NCBI GenBank assembly: GCA_025927765.1
Contig: JAICKU010000016.1
Span: forward strand, 1 to 57,714
Reading direction: 5' to 3'
DNA: 57,714 nucleotides
Origin: Burkholderiales bacterium
GTDB lineage: Bacteria; Pseudomonadota; Gammaproteobacteria; Burkholderiales; Casimicrobiaceae
The notes under the pieces were generated by a model. It was not told the DNA's origin, did not search any database, and saw only the letters and a list, made by a program, of their open reading frames with translations. Numbering within the stretch: the first letter of the stretch is position 1; every line of letters begins with the position of its first letter. Both the position numbers and the translations under genes were made by a program. This document shows positions 921-18,880 of the stretch, in pieces.

Positions 921-1511
921 CTAGCTGGATAGCCGGTGGACCAGGCGCCATGCTGCGGGAAGCGTCCACCCCGCAAGCAGCGTCTTTGCGACCGTCGCAG
1001 CGGCAAAGGGCGTCAGACCGAACCGGATGGCTCGCCCCCCACCGACGAGCTCCGATAGCCAGATGACGCCTACGCCAAGGATCAGGACGTGGGCGAGTGT
1101 CATTCCGACCAAAGCATGCCCAAGTCTCCGATCCCAGCCGCGTGCGGCGAGCGCTCCGCAAAGCCATGCGGCGAGGACGAACCCCAGGAGATAGCCTCCC
1201 GTCGGGCCAATCATGTATGCGATGCCGATTCCCCTCTCTGGCGTACCCGCGAAGACCGGGAGGCCCAGCGCACCCGCGGCGAGATATGCGAGCATGGTCG
1301 CAACGCCGAGCCGCGTTCCGTACGCCATCCCGATGACGAGAACGACGTAGGTTTGCATGGTCATCGGTACCGGCCACCAGGGGATCTCGATCTTTGCCGA
1401 AACAGTCAAGGCGACAACGCCTAGCAGCGCCAGGAGCAACTCCGCCCGTCCCCGACGGTGCGCAATCGCCCAAACGATCGGTGAACTCCCCTGCAAAGCC
1501 ACTTCGCGCAC
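921..1511 (-). CDS. bioY: Biotin transporter BioY (S-component)
   Basis: A 196-residue membrane protein with the BioY hallmarks. The segment IEIPWWPVPMTMQTYVVL comes after the first transmembrane helix, followed by YGTRLG, ALGLPVFAG and the GPTGGYLLGF motif, with about six hydrophobic segments in all. BioY takes up biotin, alone or with an ECF energising module; no EcfA or EcfT gene is present here. It is the last gene of the leftward operon that begins with the biotin carboxyl carrier and biotin carboxylase. Biotin import therefore seems to be co-inherited with a biotin-dependent enzyme. Length is normal for the family. Confidence 0.93.
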   Translation of the reverse strand: MREVALQGSSPIVWAIAHRRGRAELLLALLGVVALTVSAKIEIPWWPVPMTMQTYVVLVIGMAYGTRLGVATMLAYLAAGALGLPVFAGTPERGIGIAYMIGPTGGYLLGFVLAAWLCGALAARGWDRRLGHALVGMTLAHVLILGVGVIWLSELVGGGRAIRFGLTPFAAATVAKTLLAGWTLPAAWRLVHRLSS

Positions 1512-1570
1512 GATCTCTCCTTTCCACTAACGCCGGTTGTACATTGGTAGATCAACCGTATCCTTCAGCA

Positions 1571-1672
1571 TCACGTCATGGCTTCACGCGCGTATCGCCG
1601 CGCGATCGTGCTACCGATTCCGCCACCCGACCCGGTAATGAGCGCAACCCGACCTGCCAGGCGATTGGCCAT
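1571..1672 (-). pseudogene. SDR oxidoreductase N-terminal fragment
   Basis: A minus-strand ATG at 1672 opens a 33-residue frame beginning MANRLAGRVALITGSGGGIG, which is the start and NAD(P)-binding TGxxxGIG motif of a short-chain dehydrogenase. It stops at 1571-1573, just after the first helix (ARRYARE). The rest of the ~250-residue family is absent. The fragment lies between the TSUP gene and bioY in the same direction, so an SDR gene of this operon has apparently been deleted down to its first beta-alpha-beta unit. Confidence 0.7.
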
Positions 1673-1703
1673 ACTATTCGGACCAAAGTACGCGCTGCAG
1701 GCG

Positions 1704-2432
1704 TCAGGCAAAGACGATGCCGGTCGACACCGCAATCAGTAGAAGCAATGTGAGCTGCCGAAAGCGGGCGTCGCTGAGACGTGGGAACACGCGGGTGCCC
1801 GCAATCAGCCCGAAGTAATACGTGGGGGCGAGCCACAGCGACGCCACGACGGCAGGTACGTCAAACACATCCTGGTACCAGAGTGCTGCAAGGCCAGCGA
1901 GTGACGCGATCGTTACATACAACGTGAGATTGGCTCGTGTGGTGGCTACCGGATCCGGGCCCGAAAGTAGATACAAGATCACCGGCGGCCCGCCGACACT
2001 CGTTGCTCCCAGCATGGCGCCGCTTAGCGCACCCAATCCGACCGACGTGCTGAGCCGCTGACGACCACTGTACCGCCATCCGATCAGCAAGATCACCGCG
2101 AATACGATGACCGTAAGCGCGATCGCACGCCGCATCAGCTGCGGCTCCAGCGATACGAGAACCAGCGTGCCGAGCGGTACACAAACGCACGCCGCCAAGA
2201 GGATTGCGCCCATCAAGCGCCAGTTCACGAGAGTATGTGTGTGCAACAACATCGGAGCAGCCACTATCGACTCCAGCACCAGCACGACTGGCACCGTCAG
2301 CCGCGGCCCGAGCAGCAAGGCGAGCGGTGGCGACATCACCATTGCACCGCCAAACCCCGTCACGCCACGGACGATCCCTGCTGCGCCGGCGATGAGCAGC
2401 GCGACAGCCAATGTGTTTGCACCGAGTGGCAT
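1704..2432 (-). CDS. TSUP (TauE/SafE) family membrane transporter
   Basis: A 242-residue hydrophobic protein with the family's twofold pattern. RGVTGFGGAMVMSPPLALLLG occurs near residue 22, and a second half contains SGAMLGATSVGGPPVILYLL near residue 132. About eight transmembrane segments are visible. TSUP proteins move sulfite, sulfonates or organic acids across the inner membrane; the substrate cannot be read from sequence. It is 47 bases downstream of the carboxyltransferase gene and co-directional, so it probably exports or imports a substrate or by-product of that operon. Confidence 0.85.
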   Translation of the reverse strand: MPLGANTLAVALLIAGAAGIVRGVTGFGGAMVMSPPLALLLGPRLTVPVVLVLESIVAAPMLLHTHTLVNWRLMGAILLAACVCVPLGTLVLVSLEPQLMRRAIALTVIVFAVILLIGWRYSGRQRLSTSVGLGALSGAMLGATSVGGPPVILYLLSGPDPVATTRANLTLYVTIASLAGLAALWYQDVFDVPAVVASLWLAPTYYFGLIAGTRVFPRLSDARFRQLTLLLLIAVSTGIVFA

Positions 2433-2479
2433 GTCGGGTGAGCGACGCGTGGGTCGGTTACCTGGTCGCCTGCATCACA

Positions 2480-3949
2480 TCACGCGGCGACAGTTATGTC
2501 GGCTCCAGCAAATCTGACTCGCGCGTAGCCCACATCCGTCCGCGCCCCCAGATAGCGAATCAGCTCCATCAGCGGCGTTGCGCGGAATTGGCACCCCGGA
2601 ATCGGGTTGCGCAGTGGCTCGATCAGCTTGCGATCGTAAAACGCCGAGAGCAGAAGGTCCTCGTCGGTTGCCGCCGCTCCGAGTTCACGCCGCAGGCGTG
2701 GAATTCGCGGTTCGAGGCGCGCGGCTGGCGCTTCGGTTACGTACTCCCGGTCTGAAATATTGGCGCGCTCGAGGAACTCCGGCGCAAGTGGTGCCGCGAG
2801 ACGGCCGTAGTAACCCCGTGCGTACTTGCGAATCTCGTCCGGAATCGTCTTGTACCGCTCCCCCTGTACGACGTTCAGCGTCGCCTGGGTGACGAGGTAT
2901 TGTGCGAACGGACTGACCGCGATCGGGTAACCGAGGTCGCGACGCACTCGCGCAACCTCGTCGAGGATCTCGGGAAGACGGTGCGCAAGCCTCATCGACT
3001 CGAGCTGATAGCGCAAGTTCGAGATCATTCCGCCAGGTATCTGGTGCTCGTAGAGCGCCGGGTCATACGCCGCGATCTTCCCGCGCGGCTTATCTTCGCG
3101 TTCGCAAATCCAATCAAAATACCCCGCCACTTCCGCCAATGCGGCATCGTCCATGGACGTCGCGAGCCCAAGTCTGCGGGCACGCGCAAGGATATCCTCG
3201 GTTGCGGGTAACGAAGCCCCGTTGGCCAGTGGCTCCGTGGCCGTATAGCCGAGACGAAAGCCACTTTGCATCGCAATGTCGTAGACCTCCGGTGCGAGCC
3301 CCGACTGGCAGTGCGAGTGGAGCTGCAACGGAATTCCATTTGCCGCCTGTACTACTGCGGGAAACAGGCTGCGGCCACGCTCCGGTGTAAGCAGCCCGGT
3401 CGGGTCCTTGATCGAGATGAACTCGACCCCGAGTGCCAGCAGCTCGCGCGTACGCTCCACGTAATAGGCGTCGGTATGTACCGGCGAAAGCGTGTAGGTC
3501 ATCATGGCGTTGACCTGCATGCCTGCCTCGTGTCCCGAGCGAACGGACGACTCTATGTTGCGATTGTCGTTCAGCGCATCGTATACCGTAAGTACTTTGA
3601 TGCCGCGGCGGGCGAGGACATGCGAGTTGAGCGACACGACATCATCGGGGAAGAGCTCGAACGTATAAAGACTTTGACCGCGAGTTAGACCGTCGCAGGC
3701 GGTCGCAAAGCGACTGCATAGCAGTCCCACGCGCTCCCAGGGATTTTCCTGCAAGTAGCGCACGCATACATCGAAGACTGCACCGCCAAGGATGTTGATG
3801 AACGCGTACCCTGCGCGATCGATAACGTCGACGATTGGCGTCATCGTTGCCGTGGTCATGCGCGTACCCCACAGGCATTGGTGTGCATCGCGTAGCGTTA
3901 CGTCGATGAAGTCGAAGCGGTGCTCACCGGGGCGGAAGTTGGCGCTCAT
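2480..3949 (-). CDS. Biotin-dependent carboxyltransferase subunit (PycB/OadA-like), paralogue 1
   Basis: A 489-residue protein with an HMGL-like TIM barrel followed by the conserved PYC/OADA domain. Visible landmarks are DVTLRDAHQ (metal-ligand Asp16 and Gln24), GGAVFDVCVR (Arg64), IKDPTG with the expected carbamylated Lys181, and the HSH metal pair at 211/213. Near residue 350 there is VSPFAQYLVTQATLNV, then GERYKT. It lacks a biotinyl domain, which is encoded separately two genes upstream. By family this transfers CO2 between carboxybiotin and a keto acid or ketone. HSHC replaces the usual HTHD/HTHA, a feature shared with the second paralogue at 17408-18880. Its ATG directly follows the biotin carboxylase stop codon. 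The substrate is not known to be pyruvate. Confidence 0.9.
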   Translation of the reverse strand: MSANFRPGEHRFDFIDVTLRDAHQCLWGTRMTTATMTPIVDVIDRAGYAFINILGGAVFDVCVRYLQENPWERVGLLCSRFATACDGLTRGQSLYTFELFPDDVVSLNSHVLARRGIKVLTVYDALNDNRNIESSVRSGHEAGMQVNAMMTYTLSPVHTDAYYVERTRELLALGVEFISIKDPTGLLTPERGRSLFPAVVQAANGIPLQLHSHCQSGLAPEVYDIAMQSGFRLGYTATEPLANGASLPATEDILARARRLGLATSMDDAALAEVAGYFDWICEREDKPRGKIAAYDPALYEHQIPGGMISNLRYQLESMRLAHRLPEILDEVARVRRDLGYPIAVSPFAQYLVTQATLNVVQGERYKTIPDEIRKYARGYYGRLAAPLAPEFLERANISDREYVTEAPAARLEPRIPRLRRELGAAATDEDLLLSAFYDRKLIEPLRNPIPGCQFRATPLMELIRYLGARTDVGYARVRFAGADITVAA

Positions 3950-5314
3950 TTATGCCTCTGCGAACTCGTCCTCGACGAAGCGCGTGTGGACATCAGCCCC
4001 GAGGAACCGCGCGTCGGCCAACAGGCGCTGGTGGAACGAAGCGGTCGTCGGGATGCCCTCGATGCGCATTTCAGCCAGGGCCCGTCGCATGCGTGCAATT
4101 GCCTCATCGCGATCACTGCCCCAAGCGATAACCTTGGCGAGGAGTGAGTCGTAATACGGCGGTACGCTGTAGCCGGGATAGAGATGCGAATCGACACGAA
4201 TCCCGGGGCCGCCTGGCCAGATCACGGTGTGTATCTCGCCTGGGGTCGGCGCAAATCCACGCTCCGGATCCTCGGCATTGATGCGGCACTCGAGCGCATG
4301 GCCGGTTGGCCGCACGTCGCGTTGGTGGAGGCCGATCGGCTCGCCCTGTGCGATGCGGATCTGCGCTTTGACAATGTCGATCCCTGTCACCATTTCAGTG
4401 ACGGGATGCTCCACTTGGACGCGCGTGTTCATCTCCATGAAGTAGAAGGCTCCGTTCGCGGCGTTGACAATGAACTCGATCGTTCCAGCGTTCACGTAGC
4501 CCACCTGTCGACAGATCCGCACCGCTGCCTCACCCATTTGAGCGCGGACCACCTCATCGAGCGCTGGCGACGGACTTTCCTCGACCAGCTTTTGATTGCG
4601 CCGCTGTATCGAGCAATCGCGCTCACCAAGGTGCAGTACGGTCTCGCCATCGGACAGCACCTGGATCTCGACGTGCCGTACTCGCTCGAGGAATTTCTCG
4701 ATATATAGGCCAGCGTCACCAAAGGCTGATTGCGCCTCGTGCGCCGCGTCCCTGAAATGGCGCGGGAGGCTTGTCTCATCACGCACCACACGCATCCCGC
4801 GGCCTCCGCCGCCCGCGGTCGCCTTCAGGAGTACGGGATAGCCGAGGGCCGACGCAGCGACAAGCGCGGCAGCGACGTCGGGAACTGTCCCCGCTGAGCC
4901 CGGCGTGATTGGCACATCGGCCTCGGCAGCCATGCGACGCGCCGTGGCCTTGTCACCCATCAGCTCGATCGCGCGTGCCCCCGGTCCAATGAAGACGATT
5001 CCGGCCTCGTCGCAGGCGCGCGCAAATGCCGCGTTCTCGGAGAGAAAGCCATATCCGGGGTGAATCGCGTCGGCGCCGGCGAGACGGGCTGCGGCAACGA
5101 TCTTTTCGATATCAAGATAGCTGCTGCGCGACGGCGGTGAACCGATGCATATGGAGCTTTCGGCCATTCGGACGGCAAGTGAATTGCGGTCCGCGGTTGA
5201 GTACACAGCCACGGTCTCGAGCCCGATCTCCCGGCACGCACGCAGCACCCGTAGCGCGATTTCCCCCCGGTTCGCCACCAGGACGCGCCGAAACGTGCGC
5301 CGCGGACGACTCAT
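3950..5314 (-). CDS. Biotin carboxylase subunit (AccC/PycA-like)
   Basis: A 454-residue ATP-grasp protein of full family length. It begins VLVANRGEIALRVLRACRE and contains GADAIHPGYGFLSEN, the glycine-rich ATP loop KATAGGGGRGM, ERDCSIQRRNQKLVEE, and the catalytic stretch MEMNTRVQVEHPVTE. It carboxylates biotin on the carrier protein using ATP and bicarbonate. Its start overlaps the carrier's stop (ATGA) and its stop abuts the carboxyltransferase start. The three proteins should therefore be made together as one enzyme. It is probably not the housekeeping AccC, because no fatty-acid genes are linked and a carboxyltransferase of the pyruvate type is adjacent. Confidence 0.94.
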   Translation of the reverse strand: MSRPRRTFRRVLVANRGEIALRVLRACREIGLETVAVYSTADRNSLAVRMAESSICIGSPPSRSSYLDIEKIVAAARLAGADAIHPGYGFLSENAAFARACDEAGIVFIGPGARAIELMGDKATARRMAAEADVPITPGSAGTVPDVAAALVAASALGYPVLLKATAGGGGRGMRVVRDETSLPRHFRDAAHEAQSAFGDAGLYIEKFLERVRHVEIQVLSDGETVLHLGERDCSIQRRNQKLVEESPSPALDEVVRAQMGEAAVRICRQVGYVNAGTIEFIVNAANGAFYFMEMNTRVQVEHPVTEMVTGIDIVKAQIRIAQGEPIGLHQRDVRPTGHALECRINAEDPERGFAPTPGEIHTVIWPGGPGIRVDSHLYPGYSVPPYYDSLLAKVIAWGSDRDEAIARMRRALAEMRIEGIPTTASFHQRLLADARFLGADVHTRFVEDEFAEA

Positions 5315-5880
5315 TTGGGACGGGGTGCAAGCACGATGAGCGGCGCTTGCGCTTCCACCGGTGCTGCGTCCTCCACCAGGATGTGGGTGACCACCCCCTC
5401 GGCCCCCGCCGAGATCGAATTCATCAGTTTCATTACCTCAATGATGCAGACGATTGTGTCCGCGTCCACACGATCCCCAACCGCCACAAACGGTCGCGCA
5501 CCGGGCTCAGGCGCCCGGTAGAAGGTACCCACCATCGGCGCACGAATCACCATCGCATCCGGCGGCCAGCGGTCGCCTGATGCTTGTTCAGGATGCGGTG
5601 CGACCGACACAGGTTGGGCCGGGGGAAGATCCGACGACACCGTAGTCGGCGACGCAGGTGGCGCGTGAGCCGGTGTAGCGGGCAATGCGGGCGACGGCGA
5701 GCGTCCCGGTGCTCGCTCGACCGTCGGAAGGTCGGTCGTCGACGGCGCCGCCGGCGCGCGCCGTCGCAGCTCGACTTCGATGTCACCGACCTTCAACCGA
5801 AACTCGGAAAACAGCTCGGACGCCTTCAGGATCTCCACGATACGCAGCAGATCCTCGTAGGTGAGCGGGTCGTTGGCCAA
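5311..5880 (-). CDS. Biotin carboxyl carrier protein (AccB-like)
   Basis: The N-terminal helix resembles AccB (YEDLLRIVEILKASELFSEF, then a VGDIEVELRRR strand). A Pro/Ala-rich linker of ~60 residues follows, then a C-terminal biotinyl domain with APMVGTFY and EVMKLMN, whose Lys (~151) would carry biotin. I place the start at a TTG at 5880 because GGAG sits six bases before it. An ATG at 5991 in the same frame would add 37 residues, but would overlap the start of the divergent iclR. It is first in the leftward operon and overlaps the biotin carboxylase gene by four bases. Confidence 0.85.
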   Translation of the reverse strand: MANDPLTYEDLLRIVEILKASELFSEFRLKVGDIEVELRRRAPAAPSTTDLPTVERAPGRSPSPALPATPAHAPPASPTTVSSDLPPAQPVSVAPHPEQASGDRWPPDAMVIRAPMVGTFYRAPEPGARPFVAVGDRVDADTIVCIIEVMKLMNSISAGAEGVVTHILVEDAAPVEAQAPLIVLAPRPK

Positions 5881-5895
5881 GCGCGACTCCGGAAA

Positions 5896-6001
5896 TGAAA
5901 TTGCAAGAGGTCGTTCGCGCGCCCGGCAGGCGAGCGACGCGATGATTGCACGACAACCGGAGTCTTGCAATAATAAAACATGGTATTTCATCCAACGAAA
6001 T
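5896..6001. promoter_or_regulatory. Candidate IclR operator / divergent promoter region
   Basis: This is the short region between the leftward carboxylase operon and rightward iclR. It contains an inverted repeat ATTGCA-N15-TGCAAT (5945-5971), a second one ATTTC-N7-GAAAT (5985-6001), and another ATTGCA at 5900. AT-rich DNA (AATAATAAAACAT) lies between. IclR-family regulators commonly bind such short palindromes in divergent promoters. Which palindrome is the operator is a guess. Confidence 0.45.
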
Positions 6002-6840
6002 TTGCGTCGACCGAGGACAGAGGCGAGCTGGCGACCTCTGCAGCCTTACGCGCATTCGTCGTGCTTGAATGCATCGTGAGTGCGGAGCGGCCACCGACCC
6101 TCGACGAGATCACTCGCACGAGTGGCTTACCGAAGCCGACGGTTTATCGCGTACTCCAGCTTCTTGTGCGAAGCAGCCTGGCAGAGCGCGAGGTGCATGA
6201 AAGACGCTACACGGTCGGTTCACGTACGGCCGCACTTGCCCTCGCGGTACAGGTACACGCACCGCGCCGTGCAGAACGGCGGGCGATCCTCGCGCGCCTC
6301 GTCGATACGATTGGTGAGACATGCAACTTCACCATGCTCGATGGGAACGAGGTCGTGTATCTCGAGCGGGTGGAGACTGCGGCCAACGTGCGCCTGCACA
6401 TGAGGGCCGGTTCGCGTGTACCGCTCCATTGCACGGCGAGCGGCAAGCTCCTGTTGTCCGGTCTTGCGCCGGCGCAGGCCCGGCGGCTCCTGGGGTCGGG
6501 CCCACTGCGCCGTTACACCGAGCGAACGATAGTGGAAGTCGATGTGCTGCTGCGCGAGCTTGCGAAAGTGCGCTCTACCGGCGTAGGTACTGACGCCGGC
6601 GAGTACCTCGAAGGATCGGTATGCCTCGCGGTGCCGGTATTTGATCCACGCGGCCGAATGTGTGCAACGCTTGCAGTCCACGGACCCGCGCCACGAATGT
6701 CGCTCAAGAAGGGCCAGGGGTTCCTCGCCGCTATGCGTGAAGCCGCGGAACTCATGGGCGCCACGCTGGTTTCCGATCGAACTGCTCACGCCACTGCTTC
6801 CGGACCTGCTCACCCACGACCACCACGCATTGCCGCATGA
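5980..6840 (+). CDS. IclR-family transcriptional regulator
   Basis: A 286-residue protein with an N-terminal winged helix-turn-helix (PTLDEITRTSGLPKPTVYRVLQ, about residues 39-60). The C-terminal IclR effector domain includes RAGSRVPLHCTASGKLLLSG and the later SVCLAVPVFD strand. It is divergent from the biotin carboxylase operon and its stop overlaps the start of the BKACE gene (ATGA), so it probably controls both transcription units in response to a small acid. The ATG at 5980 has no strong ribosome site, but it is the only start that leaves the full DNA-binding domain. Confidence 0.92.
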   Translation: MVFHPTKFASTEDRGELATSAALRAFVVLECIVSAERPPTLDEITRTSGLPKPTVYRVLQLLVRSSLAEREVHERRYTVGSRTAALALAVQVHAPRRAERRAILARLVDTIGETCNFTMLDGNEVVYLERVETAANVRLHMRAGSRVPLHCTASGKLLLSGLAPAQARRLLGSGPLRRYTERTIVEVDVLLRELAKVRSTGVGTDAGEYLEGSVCLAVPVFDPRGRMCATLAVHGPAPRMSLKKGQGFLAAMREAAELMGATLVSDRTAHATASGPAHPRPPRIAA

Positions 6841-7670
6841 CACAGCCCGTCATAATCACCGTAGCGATCACTGGTGCCGTACCACGGAAGAAAGACAACC
6901 CAGCGGTGCCAGTAACCCCAGTGGAGCAGGTCGAGTCTACGCACGAGGCCTTCGAGGCTGGCGCCTCGCTGGTTCACATCCATGTCCGTAGTTCGGATGA
7001 ATCCCCGAGCTCCGATCCCCAGCTTTACGCGCGCGTGCAGGAAGGGGTGCGGAAGCACTGTCCGGGCATGATCGTTCAGTTCTCCACGGGTGGCCGCGGA
7101 CGCGACCAGGCTAAGCGTGGCGCGATGCTCTACCTCAAGCCGGACATGGCCTCGCTCGCAACCGGGTCGGTCAACTTCCCCACCGGAATCTACGAGAATC
7201 CACCGGACTTCGTGGAGGGGCTCGCGAAGGCAATGCTCGACAATGGCATCAAGCCGGAGATTGAAGTCTTCGACCTTGCGATGCTGTACAACGCTGCGAA
7301 TCTAGCGAAGAAGGGGCTCCTCGCCGAGCGACCGCATGTGCAGTTTGTCCTCGGTGTGCCCAATGCGTTGCCGGCAAGGCGCTCGATCTTCGACTTTCTA
7401 CGTGCAGAGCTCGCCCCCGTGCTACCTGGCGCAACGTGGGTGGCAGCCGGCATTGGACGGCACCAATGGGAAGTCAACCAATGGTGCCTGGAGACGGGCG
7501 GTCACTGCCGCACCGGCCTTGAGGACAATCTAAAGATTACACCGGACCGGCTCGCGGTGAGCAATGCGGAACTCGTCCGTAAGGTCGTCGATGCGTGCGC
7601 CGGCTACAACCGTCGACCCGCGACGCCCGCGGAGGCGCGGCTGATGTTGGGACTCGCGCCGACACAGTGA
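6837..7670 (+). CDS. BKACE beta-keto acid cleavage enzyme (DUF849)
   Basis: A 277-residue protein matching the 3-keto-5-aminohexanoate cleavage enzyme family. It has VHIHVR with the zinc ligands His47 and His49, the FSTGGRGRD loop, and TGLEDN with Glu229, the third metal ligand. Family members condense a beta-keto acid with acetyl-CoA and split it to acetoacetate and a new acyl-CoA. The gene overlaps iclR by four bases. Because the divergent operon encodes a carboxylase whose product could be a beta-keto acid, the two enzymes may act in sequence. Substrate specificity varies widely in this family and is not resolved here. Confidence 0.93.
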   Translation: MTQPVIITVAITGAVPRKKDNPAVPVTPVEQVESTHEAFEAGASLVHIHVRSSDESPSSDPQLYARVQEGVRKHCPGMIVQFSTGGRGRDQAKRGAMLYLKPDMASLATGSVNFPTGIYENPPDFVEGLAKAMLDNGIKPEIEVFDLAMLYNAANLAKKGLLAERPHVQFVLGVPNALPARRSIFDFLRAELAPVLPGATWVAAGIGRHQWEVNQWCLETGGHCRTGLEDNLKITPDRLAVSNAELVRKVVDACAGYNRRPATPAEARLMLGLAPTQ

Positions 7671-7918
7671 ATCGGGCACAGGGCAGGCGCTAGATGAGGT
7701 TGTGATTTGCCGACGGTCGAATGGGGGCACTGAGCGCCGAAGCTGCTTTAGCTAAGCGAGGAGCCTGGAAGCGTTCGGGATCGACGGCAGCCATAGCCCG
7801 AGGATTGCGAAGGGTGCACCACCGTAAGTGCGTATAGCGAGTCGGATAAGCGATCGCGAGGACCTCTCGACCGAAGACCTTCAGTGGAGTTGCGCAGAAC
7901 ACGCGGCGGAGCAAGACG

Positions 7919-8668: not shown

Positions 8669-8769
8669 GGCGTCGTGCGAATCGACGGTAGTGCGAGCTA
8701 GATCGGATTGATTCACCCGCCCTGATCCGAGACGGCACAACAAGCGGACCAACCGAAGGAGGAGATGAG

Positions 8770-11097: not shown

Positions 11098-11880
11098 ATG
11101 AGCACAAATTCGTCTCAAGTCAAGGTTGATCGCGTCAGCAAGGTGCACTATTCGTTGCAGGGTGAGCCCCTCCTGGCCCTAGTCGACGTCACCTTCAGCG
11201 TCGCAAACAACGAGTTCTTCTCCATCGTGGGACCGAGTGGCTGCGGCAAGACAACGCTGCTCAATCTACTCGCGGGGTTCGAGGAACCCACACGCGGCGA
11301 GCTGTGCATCGGCAGCGAGCTGATCACCGCACCCGGCTGGGAGCGGGCAGTTGTCTTCCAGGAATATGCGCTGTTTCCGTGGTACAACGTTTACGACAAC
11401 GTGTGCTATGGGCTCAAGCGCAAACGCGTCCCGGAAACCGAGCAGCGCGCGATTGCGGAGCACTACATCGCGCTCGTGGGCTTGCGCGGGTTTGAAAAGC
11501 GTTACCCGCGCGAGCTTTCCGGCGGGATGCGTCAACGGGTAAGCATTGCGCGTGCGCTCGCGGTGAACCCCTCAGTCCTCTTGATGGACGAACCGTTTGC
11601 GGCACTTGATATCCAGACGCGCGAGTACATGCAGGACGAGCTGCTGAAAATCTGGGAGCGCGAGCCGAAGACAGTCATCTTCATCACGCACAGCATCGAC
11701 GAGGCGATCAAGCTATCCGATCGTATCGCGATAATGGCGCCGCGCCCTGGGCGCATCGCGGAGATCAAGTCGGTCGAATTGCCGCGACCACGCAACCTTG
11801 CCGATCCCACAATGGCCGAACTTGCTCGCGAGGTGAAGAATTGGCTCCGACAGCATGCGTTCGAGACCGCGCCAGCGTGA
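11098..11880 (+). CDS. ABC transporter ATP-binding protein, NitT/TauT (SsuB-like)
   Basis: A 260-residue ATPase with Walker [10 protein letters not shown], the signature [15 protein letters not shown], Walker [12 protein letters not shown] and the switch His in [15 protein letters not shown] after the switch is typical of the nitrate/sulfonate/taurine branch. It follows the permease by ten bases and completes a three-gene importer. It is the last gene of the rightward operon; the next gene is convergent. Confidence 0.93.
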
Positions 11881-11953: not shown

Positions 11954-12955
11954 TCACCCGATCTCCAGGACGATCTTTCCAGTGGTGTGCCCCTCCTCCA
12001 GCATCCGGTGACCTTCGGCGACGCGTGCAAGCGGCAGGACGGCACTGACGTGGACCCGCAGCTCACCGTTGTCGATCATCGTTGCGGCCGCCTCGAGCAT
12101 GCGCGTTTGTGCGAGCCGCGCGGCATCGTTGCTCAAGAACGACGGCGCGGTCATCTGCACGTAACCGACGGTCAGGTTGCGCATTCGCGCCCTGTTGACG
12201 TCACCGAGCTCGCACGCGGTCGACAGTATGGTCGCAATACGTCCGTACATACGCAGCGCTGTGAACGACTTGTAGAAGGCAGGGCCACCGACGGTGTCGA
12301 GTACGACATCCAAGCCACGTCCCTCGGTCCAACGCAGCGCCGCAGCGACGAAATCTTCGCGTTCATAGTCAATGGCGAGCTCGGCGCCGAGGCCGCAAAC
12401 GAATTCGGCCTTTTCGCCCCCGCGGATCGTGGTCGCAACGTGCGCACCTCGCTTACGCGCGAGCTGGATTGCAACGTGTCCAACCCCCCCGGCGCCGGCG
12501 TGGATCAGAACATTCTCACCCTGCGCAAGCGCAACGCGATCGTATAGTGCCTCCCACGCTGTGATCAATACAAGTGGTACCGCAGCGGCCTCCACCATCG
12601 ACACGCGCTTGGGCTTGAGCGCGGCGTGCGCTTCGTGTACGAGGGTGTATTCGGCATATGTCCCAGTCTCCCGCCCCAGTCCACCGTTAAAGAAATACAC
12701 CGCGTCGCCCGGTTTGAAACGGGTCACTGCGTTACCGGTGCGCTCCACGATACCGGCACCATCGCAACCAAGAATCGCTGGCAGATGATCCGGGTACATG
12801 AAGTGCAACTTACGCACCTTCGTGTCAAGAGGATTCAATCCCGCGGCGTGCAAGCGCACGATCATCTGGTGCGCATCGGAAATCGTCGGCACCGGTATGT
12901 CAGCCATCTCAAGCACGTCGGCCGGACCTGGTGCCCGCATCAATATCGCCTTCAT
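11954..12955 (-). CDS. Zinc-independent MDR oxidoreductase (quinone reductase-like)
   Basis: A 333-residue medium-chain reductase with a GroES-like N-terminal half (GCDGAGIVERTG) and a Rossmann half (LIHAGAGGVGHVAIQLA). The Cys/His set that binds zinc in alcohol dehydrogenases is missing, as in quinone oxidoreductases and enoyl reductases. A GAGGAG ribosome site precedes the ATG. It is followed upstream on the same strand by a GST, and both are divergent from the DUF35-thiolase operon. It could reduce an unsaturated intermediate of the pathway. Confidence 0.9.
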   Translation of the reverse strand: MKAILMRAPGPADVLEMADIPVPTISDAHQMIVRLHAAGLNPLDTKVRKLHFMYPDHLPAILGCDGAGIVERTGNAVTRFKPGDAVYFFNGGLGRETGTYAEYTLVHEAHAALKPKRVSMVEAAAVPLVLITAWEALYDRVALAQGENVLIHAGAGGVGHVAIQLARKRGAHVATTIRGGEKAEFVCGLGAELAIDYEREDFVAAALRWTEGRGLDVVLDTVGGPAFYKSFTALRMYGRIATILSTACELGDVNRARMRNLTVGYVQMTAPSFLSNDAARLAQTRMLEAAATMIDNGELRVHVSAVLPLARVAEGHRMLEEGHTTGKIVLEIG

Positions 12956-12992: not shown

Positions 12993-13649
12993 TTAGCGCG
13001 CAAATCGGCCCCGAACGGATGGTGTCGTCATGCCGACATCAATTCCCGGCTTGGTGAGCGCGAATTCCGTAAGGGTGTTGCAGTGTTTCGACAGCGCGTC
13101 GAGACGCGGAAATCGTCCGGGCGTTACGAGCGCAGGGTTGACGAGTTGTGCGAAGTCAAATAAGGATACCGCGGTTACGTCTGCTTGTGTGAAGCGATCC
13201 AACGCCAGCCAGAGCTTGCCCGGTCGCGCGTCAAGCCAGGTCAAAGCGGAAGTGGCCTGGTCCTCGTTATGCGCCGCCCAGGGCCCGTGCACCTTCTCGG
13301 ATGGCCGCATCGTTGTCTCATAGACCCATGCGGTGAGTTTCTCGAGCGCCCCCAAACCACACGCCACCACGCGCAATACCTCATGCCGCTCCGGCTCTCG
13401 CGACGGCAGAAGGGCACGCGCTGGATCGACCAGATGATCGATGTAATCAAGAATCGCGACGCTGTCGAACAACACCGTACCAGAGTCCAGAACCAGTGAT
13501 GGAACGCGGCCTACCGGATTGTATCGGCGGACCTCCTCCAAATGGTTCCAGGCGGTGAGCGGACGGTGCTCGTACTCGAGATCGAAATGGCGCAGGGTGA
13601 TGGCGACACGCCGTGTAAAGGGTGAGCGGTAGCGGCCAATGAGAATCAT
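12993..13649 (-). CDS. Glutathione S-transferase family protein
   Basis: A 218-residue protein with an N-terminal thioredoxin-like domain (SPFTRRVAITLRHF, then NPVGRVPSLVLDSG with cis-Pro and DSVAILDYID) and an all-helical C-terminal domain. It may conjugate or isomerise electrophilic intermediates using glutathione; bacterial catabolic clusters often carry such a GST as isomerase. It precedes the MDR reductase on the same strand by 37 bases, so the two are probably co-transcribed. Confidence 0.87.
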   Translation of the reverse strand: MILIGRYRSPFTRRVAITLRHFDLEYEHRPLTAWNHLEEVRRYNPVGRVPSLVLDSGTVLFDSVAILDYIDHLVDPARALLPSREPERHEVLRVVACGLGALEKLTAWVYETTMRPSEKVHGPWAAHNEDQATSALTWLDARPGKLWLALDRFTQADVTAVSLFDFAQLVNPALVTPGRFPRLDALSKHCNTLTEFALTKPGIDVGMTTPSVRGRFAR

Positions 13650-13745: not shown

Positions 13746-14159
13746 ATGAATCGACGATCAATTCCTGATACCCGCAATGCCGGGCGCACGTTCTGGGCGC
13801 TCGCTGCGGAAGGGCAACTCGCACTTCCGTATTGCACGCCGTGCAGTCGTGCGTTCTGGTATCCGCGATGGTGCTGCCCACACTGTGGGTCCGCGGCTGT
13901 CGAATGGAGGACCACCTCCGGAGATGGCAGCGTTCACACCTTCACGGTCGTGCGCCGATCGGACCATCCGCACTTTCTCGAACGGGTTCCGTACGTCGTG
14001 GCCATGATCGATCTCGACGAGGGCGTTCGGATCATGAGCAACGTCATCGGCTGCGAGCCGGAAGTCGTGACGATCGGCATGCGCGTTCACTGCGCCTTTG
14101 AGCGGATCGATGACTACGTGGGCCTCCCGCTGTTCGCACCGATGAGCAAGACCGCGTGA
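13746..14159 (+). CDS. DUF35 / ChsH2-type OB-fold zinc-ribbon protein
   Basis: A 137-residue protein with the DUF35 arrangement: an N-terminal helix (TRNAGRTFWALAAEGQL), a rubredoxin-like zinc ribbon (CTPC and CPHC), then an OB fold (GSVHTFTVVRR, later MIDLDEGVRIMSNVIG). Such proteins partner thiolase-like enzymes. In steroid degradation the ChsH2 DUF35 domain binds the aldolase Ltp2. The stop overlaps the start of the thiolase-like gene (GTGA), so the partner relation is well supported by context. Confidence 0.9.
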   Translation: MNRRSIPDTRNAGRTFWALAAEGQLALPYCTPCSRAFWYPRWCCPHCGSAAVEWRTTSGDGSVHTFTVVRRSDHPHFLERVPYVVAMIDLDEGVRIMSNVIGCEPEVVTIGMRVHCAFERIDDYVGLPLFAPMSKTA

Positions 14160-15298
14160 GTGCTCGGCCGAGCGGCGAAGCCGCGATCGTTGGCGCATCC
14201 ACCTGCGGAATCGGGTGGACAACCGATCGCAGCGCTATCGAACTGATGGCGAACGCGTCATTGCGAGCGCTGCAGGATGCGGGTCTCCAGCTCGCGGACG
14301 TCGACGGCGTCTTTGCCGTAACCCCGTACCACTGGATGACCTCCGTGGCACTTGCCGATCAACTCGGTATCCAGCCGCGGGCTACAGACTCCACGAACAT
14401 CGGAGGTGCATCGGCAGTATCGCTCGCGGGGCACGCTCTGCGCGCGATCGCGCTTGGACAGTGCGAGGTGGCGCTCGTGGCCTACGGAAGCACGCAGCGC
14501 ACGGACACCGGCAAGCTTGTCACCGGCGCCGAATCGCTGCCCTTCGAAGCTCCGTACGGTCCGCAGTATCCGATTTCTGGTTATGCAATGGCGACACAGC
14601 GGCACATGTTCGAGTTCGGAACAACGCGCGAGCAGCTGGCCAGCGTGACGGTTGCCGCAAGCCAGTGGGCAGCACTCAATCCCGGGGCCCTTAAGCGCGA
14701 GCCGATATCGATCGCCGACGTCCTTGCTTCCCCCCTCGTCAGCGACCCGTTGCGAAAGCTCGACATATGCCTTGTCACCAACGGAGCAGGTGCGGTGGTT
14801 CTTACGCACCGCGAGCGCGCAAGGCGTCTCGATCGCCACCCCGTTGCCATTCTGGGTGCAGGTGAAAGTCACAGCCATTTATACCTGTCCAGCATGCGCA
14901 GCCTTGTTGCGACGGCCGCACGGCAGTCCTCGAGTGCGGCCTACGAGATGGCCGGCCTGGGTCCTCAGGATATGGACTTCGCACAAATCTACGACGCTTT
15001 CACCATCATGGTCCCGATCGGTCTCGAAGACCTGGGCTTCTGCACAAAGGGCGATGGCGGGCCGTTTGTGCAGCGTGGCATCGGACCCGGTTCACCCCTG
15101 CCCGTCAATACATCCGGTGGCGGGCTTCGGTACTGTCATCCGGGGATGTTCGGAATCTTCGCCCTGATCGAAGCTGTGCGCCAGCTTCGGGGCGAGTGCG
15201 GCGTGCGACAGGTGCGCGATGCGCGCATCGGTGTCGTACACGGATTCGGTGGCATATTTGCGGGCAATGCAACAGTTGTTCTTGGACGCGACAGCTAA
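14156..15298 (+). CDS. Thiolase-like protein (SCP2/lipid-transfer type) lacking the usual nucleophilic Cys
   Basis: A 380-residue thiolase-fold protein of the nondecarboxylating lipid-transfer branch. In true SCP2 thiolases a Cys follows the Asn of the nucleophile motif. Here the stretch reads STNIGGASAV, with Gly83 at that position. A C-terminal SGGGLRYCHPGMFG is present. Loss of the Cys together with an upstream DUF35 partner is the pattern of retro-aldolases such as Ltp2, which split a beta-hydroxyacyl-CoA. The GTG start overlaps the DUF35 stop. Aldolase activity is inferred; an acyl-CoA binding role is an alternative. Confidence 0.85.
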   Translation: MSARPSGEAAIVGASTCGIGWTTDRSAIELMANASLRALQDAGLQLADVDGVFAVTPYHWMTSVALADQLGIQPRATDSTNIGGASAVSLAGHALRAIALGQCEVALVAYGSTQRTDTGKLVTGAESLPFEAPYGPQYPISGYAMATQRHMFEFGTTREQLASVTVAASQWAALNPGALKREPISIADVLASPLVSDPLRKLDICLVTNGAGAVVLTHRERARRLDRHPVAILGAGESHSHLYLSSMRSLVATAARQSSSAAYEMAGLGPQDMDFAQIYDAFTIMVPIGLEDLGFCTKGDGGPFVQRGIGPGSPLPVNTSGGGLRYCHPGMFGIFALIEAVRQLRGECGVRQVRDARIGVVHGFGGIFAGNATVVLGRDS

Positions 15299-15319
15299 CT
15301 CTCGCACCGGGTGGTATCG

Positions 15320-16888
15320 ATGAATGTCCTTGCAGACTTGATTGCTCGTTCGGCCGAACGGTTTTCGGAGCGCATCGCAGTCGTGTGCGGCGCGCATCAA
15401 GCCACGTTCGAGGAAATGGGAACACAAACGAACGCCCTCGCCGGGGCAATGTCGTCTTCGCTCGGATTGCGCAAGGGTGACCGGGTCGCAATCCTCCTTC
15501 CAAACTGCGTCCAGTCAATCATTGCAGACTTCGCGCTGATCAAGGCAGCACTAATTCGTGTTCCGATCAATCCACGCTACACCTCTCGCGAGATCGAACA
15601 TATCCTCCGACATTCCGGTAGTAGCGCGATCGTCACAGACAGCGCCCACGCTACCGTAATCGAATCGCTTATCGCCTCCTTGCCGGAGCTGCGGCACGCA
15701 ATAGTGATCTCCGACTGTCCGAAGGCCGCACCGTTCGTTCCATGGGAAGAGATCATCGGCGGCGCCCCTGTCGAGCGGTACGCGGTCGAGACGACCGACG
15801 ACGACGGGTACATGATCGCGTACACATCCGGCACGACCGGGATGCCGAAAGGGGTCGTGACCACGGTCGCCTCTCGCTGGGCAGGTCTTCTCCATACTTA
15901 TGCCAACGAGCTGTTTATCACTCCCGACGACGTCATGCTGCATGCGGCATCACTCGCGCATGGAAGCGGAACCAAGGTGCTCCCCTACTTTGCGAAGGGG
16001 GCTCGCTCGGTTGTCATGCCCAAGTTCGACCCACGCGAGTTCTTCCGCCTCGTCGAAAATCAGTGCGTCACCACGACGTGGCTGGTTCCCACGATGATAG
16101 GCATGCTGGTCGAGTCGTTTTCCGCACAGCACTCGCTGAGTTCACTGCATACGATCTTCTACGCCGGCTCGCCCATGCCGCGGCCGCTACTCCGTCGTGC
16201 GATGGACACCTTCGGTCCGATCTTCGTCCAGATCTACGGGTTAACCGAGGCGCCCCAGCCTGACCTGATTCTGGGCAAGAACGATCACCAGGTGCAATTC
16301 GACCTGGATGATCGTGAGCCGTTTCCAGCCGGTTACCCCGCAATTGGTGTGAGCGCCAAGATCGTCGACGACGCGGGCGAGCAGGTTCCCTGTGGCGAAA
16401 TCGGTGAGCTGGCCGTAACCGGGAAACACATCATGGCAGGTTACTGGAACGACCCCGCGGCAACCCACAACACGCTCCGTCACGGTTGGTGCATGACCGG
16501 CGATCTGGCGCGGCGCGACGCGCGCGGGCTTCACTACCTCGTTGGGCGTAGACGGGACCTGATCATCTCTGGTGGATTCAACGTGTATCCGAAGGAGGTC
16601 GAGGACGTGCTTTACCAGCTCGACGCCGTGGAGGATTGCGCGGTCATTGGCGAGCCTGATCCTCTGTGGGGTGAAATCGTCCACGCGTTCGTGACCTGCA
16701 AGTCTGGTCTACATCTCACTGAAAAGGCGATCCTCGAGCACTGCAAGCAACAGTTGGCGGAATACAAGAAGCCCCGTCGAATCTCCCTGGTCTCCGCACT
16801 ACCGCTTACCGCCAATGGCAAGCCCGACAAGAAACAGTTGCTAGCGATGATCGCGAACCCGCTTGACGCGTGCGAAGTCTCGAGATGA
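15320..16888 (+). CDS. Acyl-CoA synthetase (AMP-forming, fatty/aryl acid ligase)
   Basis: A 522-residue ANL-family ligase. It has the P-loop-like YTSGTTGMPKGV, IYGLTEA, GYWNDP, the hinge region YLVGRRRDLIISGGFNVYPKEVE, and LPLTANGKPDKK with the adenylation Lys. It activates a carboxylic acid to its CoA thioester. I chose the ATG at 15320 over a GTG nine bases earlier. It follows the thiolase-like gene closely and its stop overlaps the next start (ATGA). It probably primes the pathway substrate or a product acid; chain specificity is not readable. Confidence 0.93.
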   Translation: MNVLADLIARSAERFSERIAVVCGAHQATFEEMGTQTNALAGAMSSSLGLRKGDRVAILLPNCVQSIIADFALIKAALIRVPINPRYTSREIEHILRHSGSSAIVTDSAHATVIESLIASLPELRHAIVISDCPKAAPFVPWEEIIGGAPVERYAVETTDDDGYMIAYTSGTTGMPKGVVTTVASRWAGLLHTYANELFITPDDVMLHAASLAHGSGTKVLPYFAKGARSVVMPKFDPREFFRLVENQCVTTTWLVPTMIGMLVESFSAQHSLSSLHTIFYAGSPMPRPLLRRAMDTFGPIFVQIYGLTEAPQPDLILGKNDHQVQFDLDDREPFPAGYPAIGVSAKIVDDAGEQVPCGEIGELAVTGKHIMAGYWNDPAATHNTLRHGWCMTGDLARRDARGLHYLVGRRRDLIISGGFNVYPKEVEDVLYQLDAVEDCAVIGEPDPLWGEIVHAFVTCKSGLHLTEKAILEHCKQQLAEYKKPRRISLVSALPLTANGKPDKKQLLAMIANPLDACEVSR

Positions 16889-17385
16889 CCTGCGTTCGCA
16901 TCAGTCACTACGTCGAATGTGGAGCAACGTCCGGTGAATCGGATTGGTACTTCTGCGACGCGACGTCCCAGTTCGTCCGTATCGAACGTACGTCGGTAGA
17001 GCAGTCACCGGGCCTCGAACCCGACGCGCGCGCACTCGTAAGTTGGATCGGCTGCCACACCCGCGCCTTCGGACGTCGGCAGGAAGGTACGATCACCTAC
17101 GTGCTCAAGTATCCGGTCCCACTGGATTATTTCAACGAATTCGACGCATGGTTTTCGTACGAGCACATGCCGCTGCTTCTCGAGGAGCCCACCTGGTACG
17201 GTTGCGATTTCTTTCGCGCACTTGCGCCCTCGACGCACACGTTCGCAGCCATACACTACCTCGAGCCCGGCGCACTCACGTCGAAAGCGAGGGACCGTTC
17301 GATAGCTACTCCGTGGTGGAACAGATTGAAGCAATGCCCTTGGTTCGACAAAGGCTTTGACCGCGCGATTCTACGACGCATCTAG
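16885..17385 (+). CDS. Small protein resembling a dimeric alpha-beta barrel (EthD-like), function unknown
   Basis: A 166-residue soluble protein. The segment TYVLKYPVPLDYFNEFDAWF followed by YEHMPLLLEEPTWYGCDFFR has the strand-helix-strand look of ferredoxin-like dimeric barrels, in which an EHMP stretch is common. It is tightly coupled (ATGA) behind the acyl-CoA ligase and lies 22 bases before the second carboxyltransferase. A role as decarboxylase, cyclase or accessory factor is possible, but I cannot assign one. Confidence 0.65.
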   Translation: MTCVRISHYVECGATSGESDWYFCDATSQFVRIERTSVEQSPGLEPDARALVSWIGCHTRAFGRRQEGTITYVLKYPVPLDYFNEFDAWFSYEHMPLLLEEPTWYGCDFFRALAPSTHTFAAIHYLEPGALTSKARDRSIATPWWNRLKQCPWFDKGFDRAILRRI

Positions 17386-17407
17386 AACGACTCGAAGGGA
17401 ATCTCCC

Positions 17408-18880
17408 ATGTCCAGGCACGTTCCGATCTGCGAAGAAGCATTGCGCGACGCGCACCAGTGTCTCTGGTCGACGCGCATGACCAACGAAATGATGCTGCCC
17501 ATCGCTAGCGTGATGGACTCGGTCGGCTACGACGCAATCGACCTGATTGGTGGCGCAGTATGGGATGTATCGGTGCGCTTTCTTCGCGAAGACCCGTGGG
17601 AGCGGATGCGACACGTCCGTCACCTTATTCCCAAGACTCCCCTCAACGCCTGGGTACGCGGTCAAAGCCTCTGGACTTTTGAAGTGTTTCCCAACGACGT
17701 CGTCGAACTCGCCATGGAGCGGCTGTTCGCGAACGGCATCCGCGAGATTGCGCTTTACGATCAGTTCAACGATCTACGCAACGTGGAGGTTGTCGTCGCC
17801 AAGGCGAAATCCGTGGGAATCGTCGTACGTGGTGCTCTCGTTTTCTCACGCAGCCCCGTGCATACGGATGCGTACTATGCGGGTAAGGCCGCCGAGTTTG
17901 TGCGTCTTGGTGCAGACCAAATCATCGTGAAGGACCCAAGCGGCATGCTCGACGTTCCGCGCGTTCGCTCGCTCGTTCCCGCATTGCGCAGAGTAATCGG
18001 CCCGGTTCGGATCAATATCCACAGTCACTGCATGAGCGGGCGAGCTCCCGAAGTTCTGCTTGAGGCGGTCGACGCCGGTGCGGACACCGTGCACACCGCG
18101 ATTTCTCCGCTGGCGCTCGGACCGTCCCATCCCCCGACGGAATGGGTGGACGAGCAACTTCAAAAGCGTGGCTACTCGACCGATCTCGATCGGGATGCGC
18201 TGCATCGGATGGCATCGTACTTTCGCTACGTCTGTCACCGGTGGCGAAAACCTCTCGGCGCCCCCATGCCTGAGGATCCGCTTCTGGACGAACACCAGCT
18301 TCCAGGTGGCATGATCACCAACTTACGCACCCAGCTGCGGGAGCGCGGGCTCGAGCAACGGCTCACGGAGATCCTGACGGAGGCCACCCAAGTACGCAAG
18401 GATATGGGATATGTCCCGGTTGTCAGCCCGACGGCGCAATTCATGCTGACACAGGCGACACTCAACGTGATTCAGGGTGAAAGATACAAGACAGTTCCGG
18501 ACGAGTTACGCAAATACGTACTTGGTTATTACGGCACACCTCCGGCTCCAATTGCGCCGGAACTCCTCGAGCGCGCAGTACGCAAGGGTGATCGATTCGT
18601 GTCTGGCCGGGCGGGCGACCTGGTGCCACCAGCACTCAAACGCGTGCGCAGAACGCGGGGTCCGTTTCGCTCCGACGAAGACCTGCTAAATGCCGTGTTC
18701 TACGGCGACGAGATCCTCAAGCCATTGTTCGAGGCGCGAACGACACGGGACTACGCGCAGTTCTACCGACCGGCGAACGCACTGTCCGACCTTGTGTACG
18801 AAATAGCGCGCCAGCCCGACATTTCCTTCATGCGAATCACTCGCGGTAATGCCTTGTCCATGACCTTCGGTGAGACGTAG
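17408..18880 (+). CDS. Biotin-dependent carboxyltransferase subunit (PycB/OadA-like), paralogue 2
   Basis: A 490-residue paralogue of the protein at 2480-3949, with the same layout and the shared signatures RDAHQCLW, GGAVWDVSVR, IVKDPSG (Lys175), HSHC (205-208), VSPTAQ and GERYKT. The metal-ligand Asp at the start of the DxTLRD motif is replaced by Glu9 (ICEEALRD). No biotinyl domain and no second biotin carboxylase are present, so it should depend on the carrier and carboxylase of the other operon. The ATG at 17408 is preferred over an upstream extension. It may form a mixed carboxyltransferase with paralogue 1, or serve a second substrate. Confidence 0.88.
   Translation: MSRHVPICEEALRDAHQCLWSTRMTNEMMLPIASVMDSVGYDAIDLIGGAVWDVSVRFLREDPWERMRHVRHLIPKTPLNAWVRGQSLWTFEVFPNDVVELAMERLFANGIREIALYDQFNDLRNVEVVVAKAKSVGIVVRGALVFSRSPVHTDAYYAGKAAEFVRLGADQIIVKDPSGMLDVPRVRSLVPALRRVIGPVRINIHSHCMSGRAPEVLLEAVDAGADTVHTAISPLALGPSHPPTEWVDEQLQKRGYSTDLDRDALHRMASYFRYVCHRWRKPLGAPMPEDPLLDEHQLPGGMITNLRTQLRERGLEQRLTEILTEATQVRKDMGYVPVVSPTAQFMLTQATLNVIQGERYKTVPDELRKYVLGYYGTPPAPIAPELLERAVRKGDRFVSGRAGDLVPPALKRVRRTRGPFRSDEDLLNAVFYGDEILKPLFEARTTRDYAQFYRPANALSDLVYEIARQPDISFMRITRGNALSMTFGET

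Follow-up and report, generated by a model that had tools for sequence, protein, structure and literature searches.

A conserved carboxyltransferase–BKACE gene unit in a Casimicrobiaceae genome and its predicted role in the degradation of a sulfonated ketone

Introduction

The sulfoacetate pathway, reportedly described by Weinitschke in 2010, runs from SauT through SauS to Xsc, with SauS handling sulfoacetyl-CoA. In carboxyltransferases of the PycB/OadA type, the metal site consists of an Asp, an HxH motif and a carbamylated Lys. Biotin-dependent carboxylation of ketones has also been described. The three-part enzyme HpeCBA was shown to carboxylate the methyl group of ketones to give beta-keto acids – its substrates are phosphorylated hydroxyacetophenones, and its operon includes a kinase and a phosphatase – and similar activity is reported for Xcc (XccBCA), which like HpeCBA is a phosphophenylethanone/hydroxyacetophenone carboxylase, and for the Acv carboxylase of SYK-6 (PMC9618137, PMC13101465).

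The window analyzed here is the whole stretch of 57,714 nucleotides from contig JAICKU010000016.1 of a Burkholderiales bacterium in the family Casimicrobiaceae (GCA_025927765.1). An initial annotation of positions 921–18880 had proposed that a ketone is carboxylated and the product then cleaved by a BKACE, with two carboxyltransferases and a biotin importer taking part, and had implied that the biotin-dependent carboxylation was new. Since HpeCBA, Xcc and Acv are already known, the carboxylation step itself is not.

Results and Discussion

Gene content of the locus

All of the genes named in the initial annotation were found in their places by profile searches, with family scores far above chance. 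On the reverse strand are the biotin importer BioY (921–1511; PF02632, 1.4e-31), a TauE/SafE-type exporter predicted to export sulfite (1704–2432; PF01925, 9.9e-26), the first PycB/OadA-type carboxyltransferase, CT1 (2480–3949; PF02436, 2.9e-33), a biotin carboxylase subunit, BC (3950–5314; PF02786, PF00289 and PF02785), and the biotin carboxyl carrier protein, BCCP (5311–5991; PF00364; TIGR00531, 115.8 bits with a cut-off of 115.2). BC, BCCP and CT1 are thus three separate subunits encoded by three genes. The biotin-lysine motif of BCCP is EVMKLM, and its ORF is probably over-extended, with the true start inside it.

On the forward strand are an IclR regulator (5980–6840; PF01614 and PF09339), the BKACE (6837–7670; PF05853, 7.3e-94), an SDR dehydrogenase (7919–8668; PF13561) and three genes for an ABC importer (8770–11880): a solute-binding protein (8770–10143; TIGR01728 SsuA family, 3.5e-14, below cut-off), a TauC/SsuC-type permease (10110–11087; PF00528; PRK10160 TauC, 187.7 bits, below cut-off) and an ATPase (11098–11880; PF00005). 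The best PDB match of the binding protein is SsuA (2x26, 2.6e-8), and by these similarities the importer is SsuA/TauC-like, of the sulfonate type.

Reverse-strand genes for a zinc-type ADH-family protein (11954–12955) and a GST (12993–13649) separate this operon from a second one on the forward strand, which encodes a DUF35/ChsH2-like OB-fold protein (13746–14159; PF01796 and PF12172), a thiolase-like protein (14156–15298), an AMP-forming acyl-CoA ligase (15311–16888; PF00501), a protein of 171 amino acids (16870–17385) and a second PycB/OadA-type carboxyltransferase, CT2 (17357–18880; PF02436, 1.9e-32). Across the draft genome (4.0 Mb), PYC_OADA matched CT1 and CT2 only. The description "thiolase-like" holds at the level of family (PF22691), but the nucleophilic Cys is missing – IGGAS is found where NACAS is expected – and classical thiolysis by this operon is therefore doubtful. 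At a threshold of 0.001 neither Pfam nor NCBIfam gave a match for the 171-residue protein. It is conserved in the CT2 operon: relatives 47–49% identical to it adjoin CT2 in two other loci (L051 and L054).

Conservation of the locus in relatives

Loci of the best 80 of 282 relatives were compared. The CT1 clade accounts for 68 of these, and all counts of CT1-clade loci given here refer to that set; twelve loci at 50–54% identity (L102–L113) were left outside it. The 68 include many near relatives and collapse to 19 clusters at 80% identity, 15 of them with BKACE and 6 with SauS. Linkage was counted by tblastn because a greedy ORF picker took antisense frames in the GC-rich DNA.

BKACE was found in 51 of the 68 CT1-clade loci, and in 42 of the 46 that have at least 4.5 kb upstream; the four without it despite 4.5 kb upstream are L037, L054, L071 and L074. 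The linkage on which the initial annotation had made its pathway depend is therefore conserved in other genomes, and it recurs in many Betaproteobacteria. BCCP was found in 64 loci, the importer in 45, relatives of TauE in 24 and a relative of the SDR (at least 44% identity) in 19, while BC was absent from 40, some of these loci being short. Carboxyltransferases of a neighboring branch, from Alphaproteobacteria, lie beside a BKACE in all six of their loci (L104 and L109–L113), three of which also have SauS, and these BKACE are 69–71% identical to that of the window. In two Trinickia loci (L045 and L100) the entire gene set is in one place. The carriers are soil and freshwater bacteria.

Two parts of the proposed pathway did not survive this comparison. 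BioY had no match in any of the 68 loci (best 80 of 282 relatives), 26 of which have 9 kb on both sides, so it is a local neighbor and not a conserved member of the unit. CT2 was found in only 2 of the same 68 loci, which argues against a single pathway for both carboxyltransferases; it forms its own branch with L051 (support 100/100).

SauS, Xsc and the proposed route

The neighboring genes point to a sulfonate substrate, which the initial annotation had left open. SauS was found in 24 of the 68 CT1-clade loci; of the 26 that extend 9 kb to either side, 15 have it. Nine SauS proteins, hand-picked from the 27 found, all scored 731–798 bits on NF047625 (cut-off 600). In six loci (L053, L055, L056, L063, L064 and L101) SauS follows BKACE at a distance of 30–118 bp and reads in the same direction. 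SauT was not found in the stretches of these six loci, an absence that means little for L063 and L064, which end 224 and 21 bases past SauS. SauS and BKACE lie on opposite strands in 17 of the 24 loci, and in the Polynucleobacter-type loci, where SauT accompanies it, SauS may be only a neighbor. No Xsc was found in the genome of L063, whose SauS scored 740 bits on the same model.

SauS is not in the window. The source genome encodes it on another contig (732.7 bits, cut-off 600), side by side with Xsc (941.2 bits, cut-off 676.4) and together with a SauT-like ligase, a set that suffices for sulfoacetate. Xsc was found in 36 of 39 genomes with CT1-type loci and in 2 of 24 genomes from other families of the same order (Fisher 1e-11, or 7e-10 without 13 Polynucleobacter-type genomes, uncorrected for relatedness), the 39 being a hand-picked, non-random set of 35 of the 68 plus 4 Alphaproteobacterial genomes, chosen after the SauS distribution was known. 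Within the window's family Xsc was over its cut-off in 26 of 37 genomes, including the source genome; it is common there, so it says nothing inside the family and was rejected as a specific marker.

From the observed gene content and linkage, and because the source genome has both SauS and Xsc, we infer a substrate and a series of reactions. With a probability of roughly 0.6, the unit of IclR–BKACE, BCCP–BC–CT1, the ABC importer and TauE degrades a methyl ketone that carries a sulfonate group, sulfoacetone being the likeliest. Carboxylation of a ketone followed by BKACE cleavage is very probable, and that much of the earlier proposal is retained on the CT1–BKACE linkage, though not BioY, a pathway shared with CT2, or the newness of the carboxylation. 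Sulfoacetone itself is the probable substrate. The odds are slightly in favor of BC–BCCP–CT1 being a biotin-dependent sulfoacetone carboxylase that, with BKACE, opens a "sulfoacetoacetate" pathway feeding sulfoacetyl-CoA into SauS and Xsc.

In this pathway, the sulfonate-type importer would take up sulfoacetone (2-oxopropane-1-sulfonate) or its alcohol, which the SDR could oxidize to sulfoacetone. BC and BCCP would form carboxybiotin from ATP and bicarbonate, and CT1 would transfer the carboxyl group to the methyl group of sulfoacetone, giving 4-sulfo-3-oxobutanoate (sulfoacetoacetate). BKACE would convert this and acetyl-CoA to sulfoacetyl-CoA and acetoacetate; SauS would reduce sulfoacetyl-CoA to sulfoacetaldehyde, Xsc would yield acetyl phosphate and sulfite, and TauE would export the sulfite. 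Sulfoacetyl-CoA, SauS and Xsc are common to this route and the sulfoacetate pathway, but here sulfoacetyl-CoA would arise via BKACE rather than a SauT ligase.

BKACE and the nature of the substrate

The BKACE matches PF05853 over its full length (314.6 bits, cut-off 24.8), the family (BKACE, DUF849) of Kce 2y7d and 3no5. It differs from Kce in having Val-Pro-Arg-Lys-Lys in place of Glu-Thr-Thr-Arg-Ala. That Glu of Kce presumably binds the amino group of the substrate, and its replacement by Val, followed by Pro-Arg-Lys-Lys, suggests a substrate with an anionic tail.

In an alternative reading, the unit would degrade levulinate or a similar methyl ketone bearing a carboxylate: carboxylation of the methyl group would yield 3-oxoadipate, which BKACE would cleave to succinyl-CoA and acetoacetate, with SauS, TauE and the importer as mere neighbors. 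The BKACE does score 460 bits (cut-off 350) on NF053568, which NCBIfam names 3-oxoadipate:acetyl-CoA acetyltransferase; Arg90 of CT1 could bind a carboxylate; and the window has no SauS. However, NF053568 also takes in paralogs that share only 58–60% identity with the BKACE of the window and have no CT1 nearby, so the name is no proof of substrate. It matches in 5 of 5 CT1-positive and 2 of 56 CT1-negative genomes (Fisher 3.5e-6), but in G012, G005 and G017 the matching proteins are of this different 58–60% subgroup; the window's subgroup alone is in 4 of 5 and 0 of 56 (Fisher 9.6e-6). A search of 120 genomes of the same order gave NF053568 matches in two, one of them the source genome. The six loci with SauS behind BKACE, the SsuA-type binding protein and the frequency of Xsc in genomes with such loci all make levulinate an unlikely substrate.

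CT1 and its active site

Prediction of the carboxyltransferase active sites had been suggested in the initial annotation. The predicted structure of CT1 (pLDDT 88.9) resembles 5ks8, 2nx9 and 1rqh, with the fold and catalytic residues of PycB, OadA and transcarboxylase 5S. In the model and alignment D21, Q24, R90, K181, H211 and H213 are retained; D21, K181, H211 and H213, the metal-site positions, are invariant across 28 aligned rows. This conservation, with a score of 422 bits on the PRK09282 domain model (cut-off 402), would fit an ordinary subunit of pyruvate carboxylase or oxaloacetate decarboxylase, placed beside BKACE by operon packing. CT1 differs from such enzymes in several ways. A Pfam scan found no BCCP domain on it, and it reached none of the listed equivalog cut-offs for PycB, OadA or PC (oadA, 376.5 bits with 756.5 needed; PRK14041, 369.1 with 734 needed). 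Its pocket is altered at five positions relative to two canonical PycB rows – W54L/M, T58V, Y97F, M183P and T346S – and all CT1, Alphaproteobacterial and Rokubacterial rows differ from the two at these positions. Given also the conserved linkage to BKACE and sulfonate genes, an ordinary role of this kind is improbable.

Slightly less probable still is that CT1 carboxylates another ketone after phosphorylation, as in the hydroxyphenylethanone (Hpe/Acv) pathways. The separate BC, BCCP and carboxyltransferase subunits are like those of HpeCBA, Xcc and Acv; pBAR1 has BKACE, BCCP, BC, a carboxyltransferase and a HAD-like hydrolase together; and Rhodococcus plasmids have a PPDK-type kinase, BCCP, BC, a carboxyltransferase, DUF35, a thiolase and a phosphatase. 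However, no kinase or phosphatase is among the 18 genes scanned in 921–18880, while the Hpe operon has both; the transporter and neighbors in the window are of the sulfonate type, and the predicted cleavage is by BKACE rather than by a ligase and hydrolase. The pBAR1 carboxyltransferase, a likely relative of HpeB and XccC (WP_011236024.1), has Thr for Arg90 and falls in another branch, a placement made unsure by its long branch.

BKACE reactions are reversible in principle, but a reverse pathway, in which sulfoacetyl-CoA would condense with acetoacetate and the product would then lose its carboxyl group to biotin, is very improbable given a biotin carboxylase with an ATP-grasp domain and an importer and TauE exporter that fit uptake and breakdown.

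Conclusions

A sulfonate route through BKACE would be new and looks undescribed. If the CT1–BKACE unit does degrade sulfoacetone, a gene group that occurs in many Betaproteobacteria would acquire both a substrate and a complete route; the named families closest to these genes are pyruvate carboxylase subunit B and 3-oxoadipate acetyltransferase. The carriers of the pathway would be many Betaproteobacteria, including streamlined freshwater Polynucleobacter, and with named isolates among them (Trinickia soli GP25-8 and several Polynucleobacter) the route is testable. If it is correct, carboxylation joins the ways in which bacteria open organosulfonates, and PycB-type carboxyltransferases, paired with BKACE, have spread into several ketone pathways.

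Gene content of the window

The gene list of the initial annotation was borne out by Pfam and NCBIfam scans. BioY, the predicted sulfite exporter TauE, the PycB/OadA-like carboxyltransferase CT1 (2480–3949), biotin carboxylase (BC) and the biotin carrier (BCCP) are on the minus strand; IclR, the beta-keto acid cleavage enzyme (BKACE, 6837–7670), an SDR and a SsuA/TauC-type importer are on the plus strand. An ADH-family protein and a GST lie between the importer and the CT2 operon, which encodes a DUF35 protein, a thiolase-like protein, an acyl-CoA ligase, a 171-aa protein of unknown function and the second carboxyltransferase, CT2 (17357–18880, plus strand). The genome, a 4.01-Mb draft of 148 contigs, has no PYC_OADA match other than CT1 and CT2. 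A second BKACE, which belongs to the subgroup of the window's enzyme and is 77% identical to it, lies at G000:C80:12336–13151; the surrounding 20 kb hold none of the other tblastn-panel genes. Elsewhere in the window (49518–53612, plus strand), the large chain of ribonucleotide reductase is split by an intein with a LAGLIDADG domain.

The carboxyltransferase CT1

The AlphaFold model of CT1 (pLDDT 88.9, pTM 0.87) matches PDB entries 5ks8 (two-subunit pyruvate carboxylase), 2nx9 (OadA) and 1rqh (transcarboxylase 5S with pyruvate). Asp21, Gln24, Arg90, Lys181, His211 and His213, which we take to be the metal ligands, the carbamylated lysine and the pyruvate-binding residues, are invariant in a 28-row alignment. 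Relative to two canonical PycB rows, five pocket positions are changed in the rows of CT1, CT2, the Alphaproteobacteria and the Rokubacteria: W54 to L/M/V/I, T58 to V, Y97 to F, M183 to P and T346 to S. PDB titles name mutants of 5S (A59T, Met186Ile), Staphylococcus aureus PC (A610T, T908A) and Rhizobium etli PC (Y628A); from the alignments and the residue numbering of those enzymes, M186, T908 and Y628 presumably correspond to CT1 positions 183, 346 and 97. On the model and alignment, the chemistry of CT1 thus looks to have been kept and its pocket altered. Among other PycB-like proteins, two next to a BC (L027, G010:C44, 10409–11893; L028, G015:C5, 8723–10195) have N for the metal Asp and S for the carbamylated Lys, and one on a Rhodococcus plasmid (L127) has Glu at the Lys position.

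Ketone carboxylation and the CT2 operon

Biotin-dependent ketone carboxylation is not new, although the initial annotation had implied that it was: HpeCBA carboxylates 4-phospho-acetovanillone, with no detectable activity on the unphosphorylated ketones (PMC9618137), and PMC13101465 reports Acv of SYK-6 as well as a comparable route in N. aromaticivorans.

The pairing of a PycB-type carboxyltransferase with BKACE recurs in further branches, including two loci (L026, L031) with 33–36% identical BKACE and ABC transporter genes. On plasmid pBAR1 of Sphingomonas bisphenolicum (L126, 2582–9351), a thioesterase, BKACE, a Tm-1-like protein, BCCP, BC, a PycB-like carboxyltransferase and a HAD-like hydrolase form one run, likely a 4-hydroxyacetophenone route with BKACE. 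Rhodococcus plasmids carry a set parallel to the CT2 operon – ligase, PPDK-type kinase, BCCP, BC, carboxyltransferase, DUF35, thiolase and phosphatase – but their thiolases have NACAS where the window's thiolase-like protein has IGGAS. Given this replacement, a retro-aldol role, the role of Ltp2/ChsH2, would by analogy be as likely for the DUF35/thiolase-like pair; the DUF35 protein has Pfam domains of the ChsH2 type. On plasmid pNK84 of Caballeronia sp. NK8 (L128, 2068–15959), a CT-BCCP-BC group lies near an acetoacetate decarboxylase, a carbonic anhydrase and a BioA-type transaminase.

Conservation of the CT1 locus

CT1, CT2 and a carboxyltransferase of a third type were aligned and used to scan the genome_contigs collection. 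This gave 282 relatives, of which the best 80 were taken; among these, the nearest named CT1 relatives are Betaproteobacteria/Burkholderiaceae MAGs. In 68 loci (L034–L101) the carboxyltransferase is 57–85% identical to CT1, and 14 sampled from these form one clade with CT1 (support 100/100). Neighbors were counted by tblastn at identity thresholds of our choosing: BCCP in 64 loci, IclR in 52, BKACE in 51, the importer binding protein in 45, BC in 28, a GMC oxidoreductase in 27, TauE and the acylating sulfoacetaldehyde dehydrogenase SauS in 24 each, SDR in 19, the sulfoacetate ligase SauT in 18, Xsc in 4, CT2 in 2 and BioY in none.

Many of these contigs are short. Where at least 4.5 kb lies upstream, BKACE is present in 42 of 46 loci, so the CT1–BKACE linkage, which the initial annotation had proposed to check in other genomes, is conserved. 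By tblastn, no BKACE of the window's kind was found in the other four (L037, L054, L071, L074), though L071 has one of another kind (34% identical). L054 also has two CT1-type genes (63% and 70–71%), CT2 and two stretches resembling the 171-aa protein (912–11449). The 68 loci are not independent, forming 19 clusters at 80% identity, 15 with BKACE and 6 with SauS. Across the window's genome and 60 relatives, CT1 orthologs (at least 71%) occur in 5, and the window's BKACE subgroup in 4 of these 5 (the exception is G012) versus none of the other 56.

BC was not found by tblastn in 40 of the 68 loci. Where BCCP and CT1 are adjacent without BC, the carrier would have to borrow one, for example from acetyl-CoA carboxylase. 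The Polynucleobacter-type loci (L075–L099) have no BC found and adjacent BCCP and CT1 in those measured, and so probably share BC with another carboxylase.

SauS, Xsc and the substrate

SauS follows directly behind BKACE, on the same strand and after a gap of 30–118 bp, in six loci (L053, L055, L056, L063, L064, L101). SauT was not found in these six; four extend 5.5 kb past SauS, and the contigs of L063 and L064 end almost right after it. Two Trinickia loci (L045, L100) have IclR, BKACE, BCCP, BC, CT1, importer, TauE, SDR and SauS together. SauS is in 15 of the 26 CT1-clade loci that are flanked by 9 kb in each direction, and nine SauS chosen from 27 all pass the cut-off of 600 bits (731–798). 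Six Alphaproteobacterial loci (L104, L109–L113) all have BKACE (69–71% identical to the window's) and three have SauS; carboxyltransferases from four of them fall in a branch neighboring the CT1 clade. SauS is on the opposite strand from BKACE in 17 of the 24 loci that have it, and in Polynucleobacter-type loci, where it stands with SauT, it could be a mere neighbor.

BKACE converts R-CO-CH2-COO- and acetyl-CoA to R-CO-SCoA and acetoacetate, as Bastard reportedly described in 2014. If R-CO-SCoA is sulfoacetyl-CoA, the acid cleaved would be 4-sulfo-3-oxobutanoate and the ketone before carboxylation sulfoacetone. The main rival is that the unit carboxylates levulinate, which the NCBIfam name of BKACE, 3-oxoadipate:acetyl-CoA acetyltransferase, fits equally well.

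In the non-subscription literature searched, no degradation context was found for sulfoacetone, its alcohol or its carboxylation product, nor was BKACE found together with sulfoacetyl-CoA; 2-hydroxypropane-1-sulfonate was met, by titles, only in oil recovery, batteries, ionic liquids and nano-dots. A phloroglucinol paper (PMC10470551) contains BKACE wording and sulfoacetaldehyde.

If sulfoacetaldehyde is formed, Xsc is expected in the genomes that carry these loci. It was found in 36 of 39 checked, hand-picked from the 80 loci and not blind to SauS (the exceptions are those of L050, L063 and L079), versus 2 of 24 same-order genomes outside the window's family (Fisher 1e-11, or 7e-10 without 13 Polynucleobacter-type genomes, kinship uncorrected). 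Inside the family, 26 of 37 genomes have Xsc over the cut-off, so there it is non-discriminating. SauS is absent from the window itself; in the window's genome Xsc, SauS and a SauT-like ligase are adjacent on contig C16, the ligase passing no specific NCBIfam cut-off shown and named by position.

Sulfoacetone as the substrate is a deduction, as is every reaction of the route: CT1, BC and BCCP would carboxylate sulfoacetone, BKACE would cleave the product to sulfoacetyl-CoA, and SauS and then Xsc would take it further.
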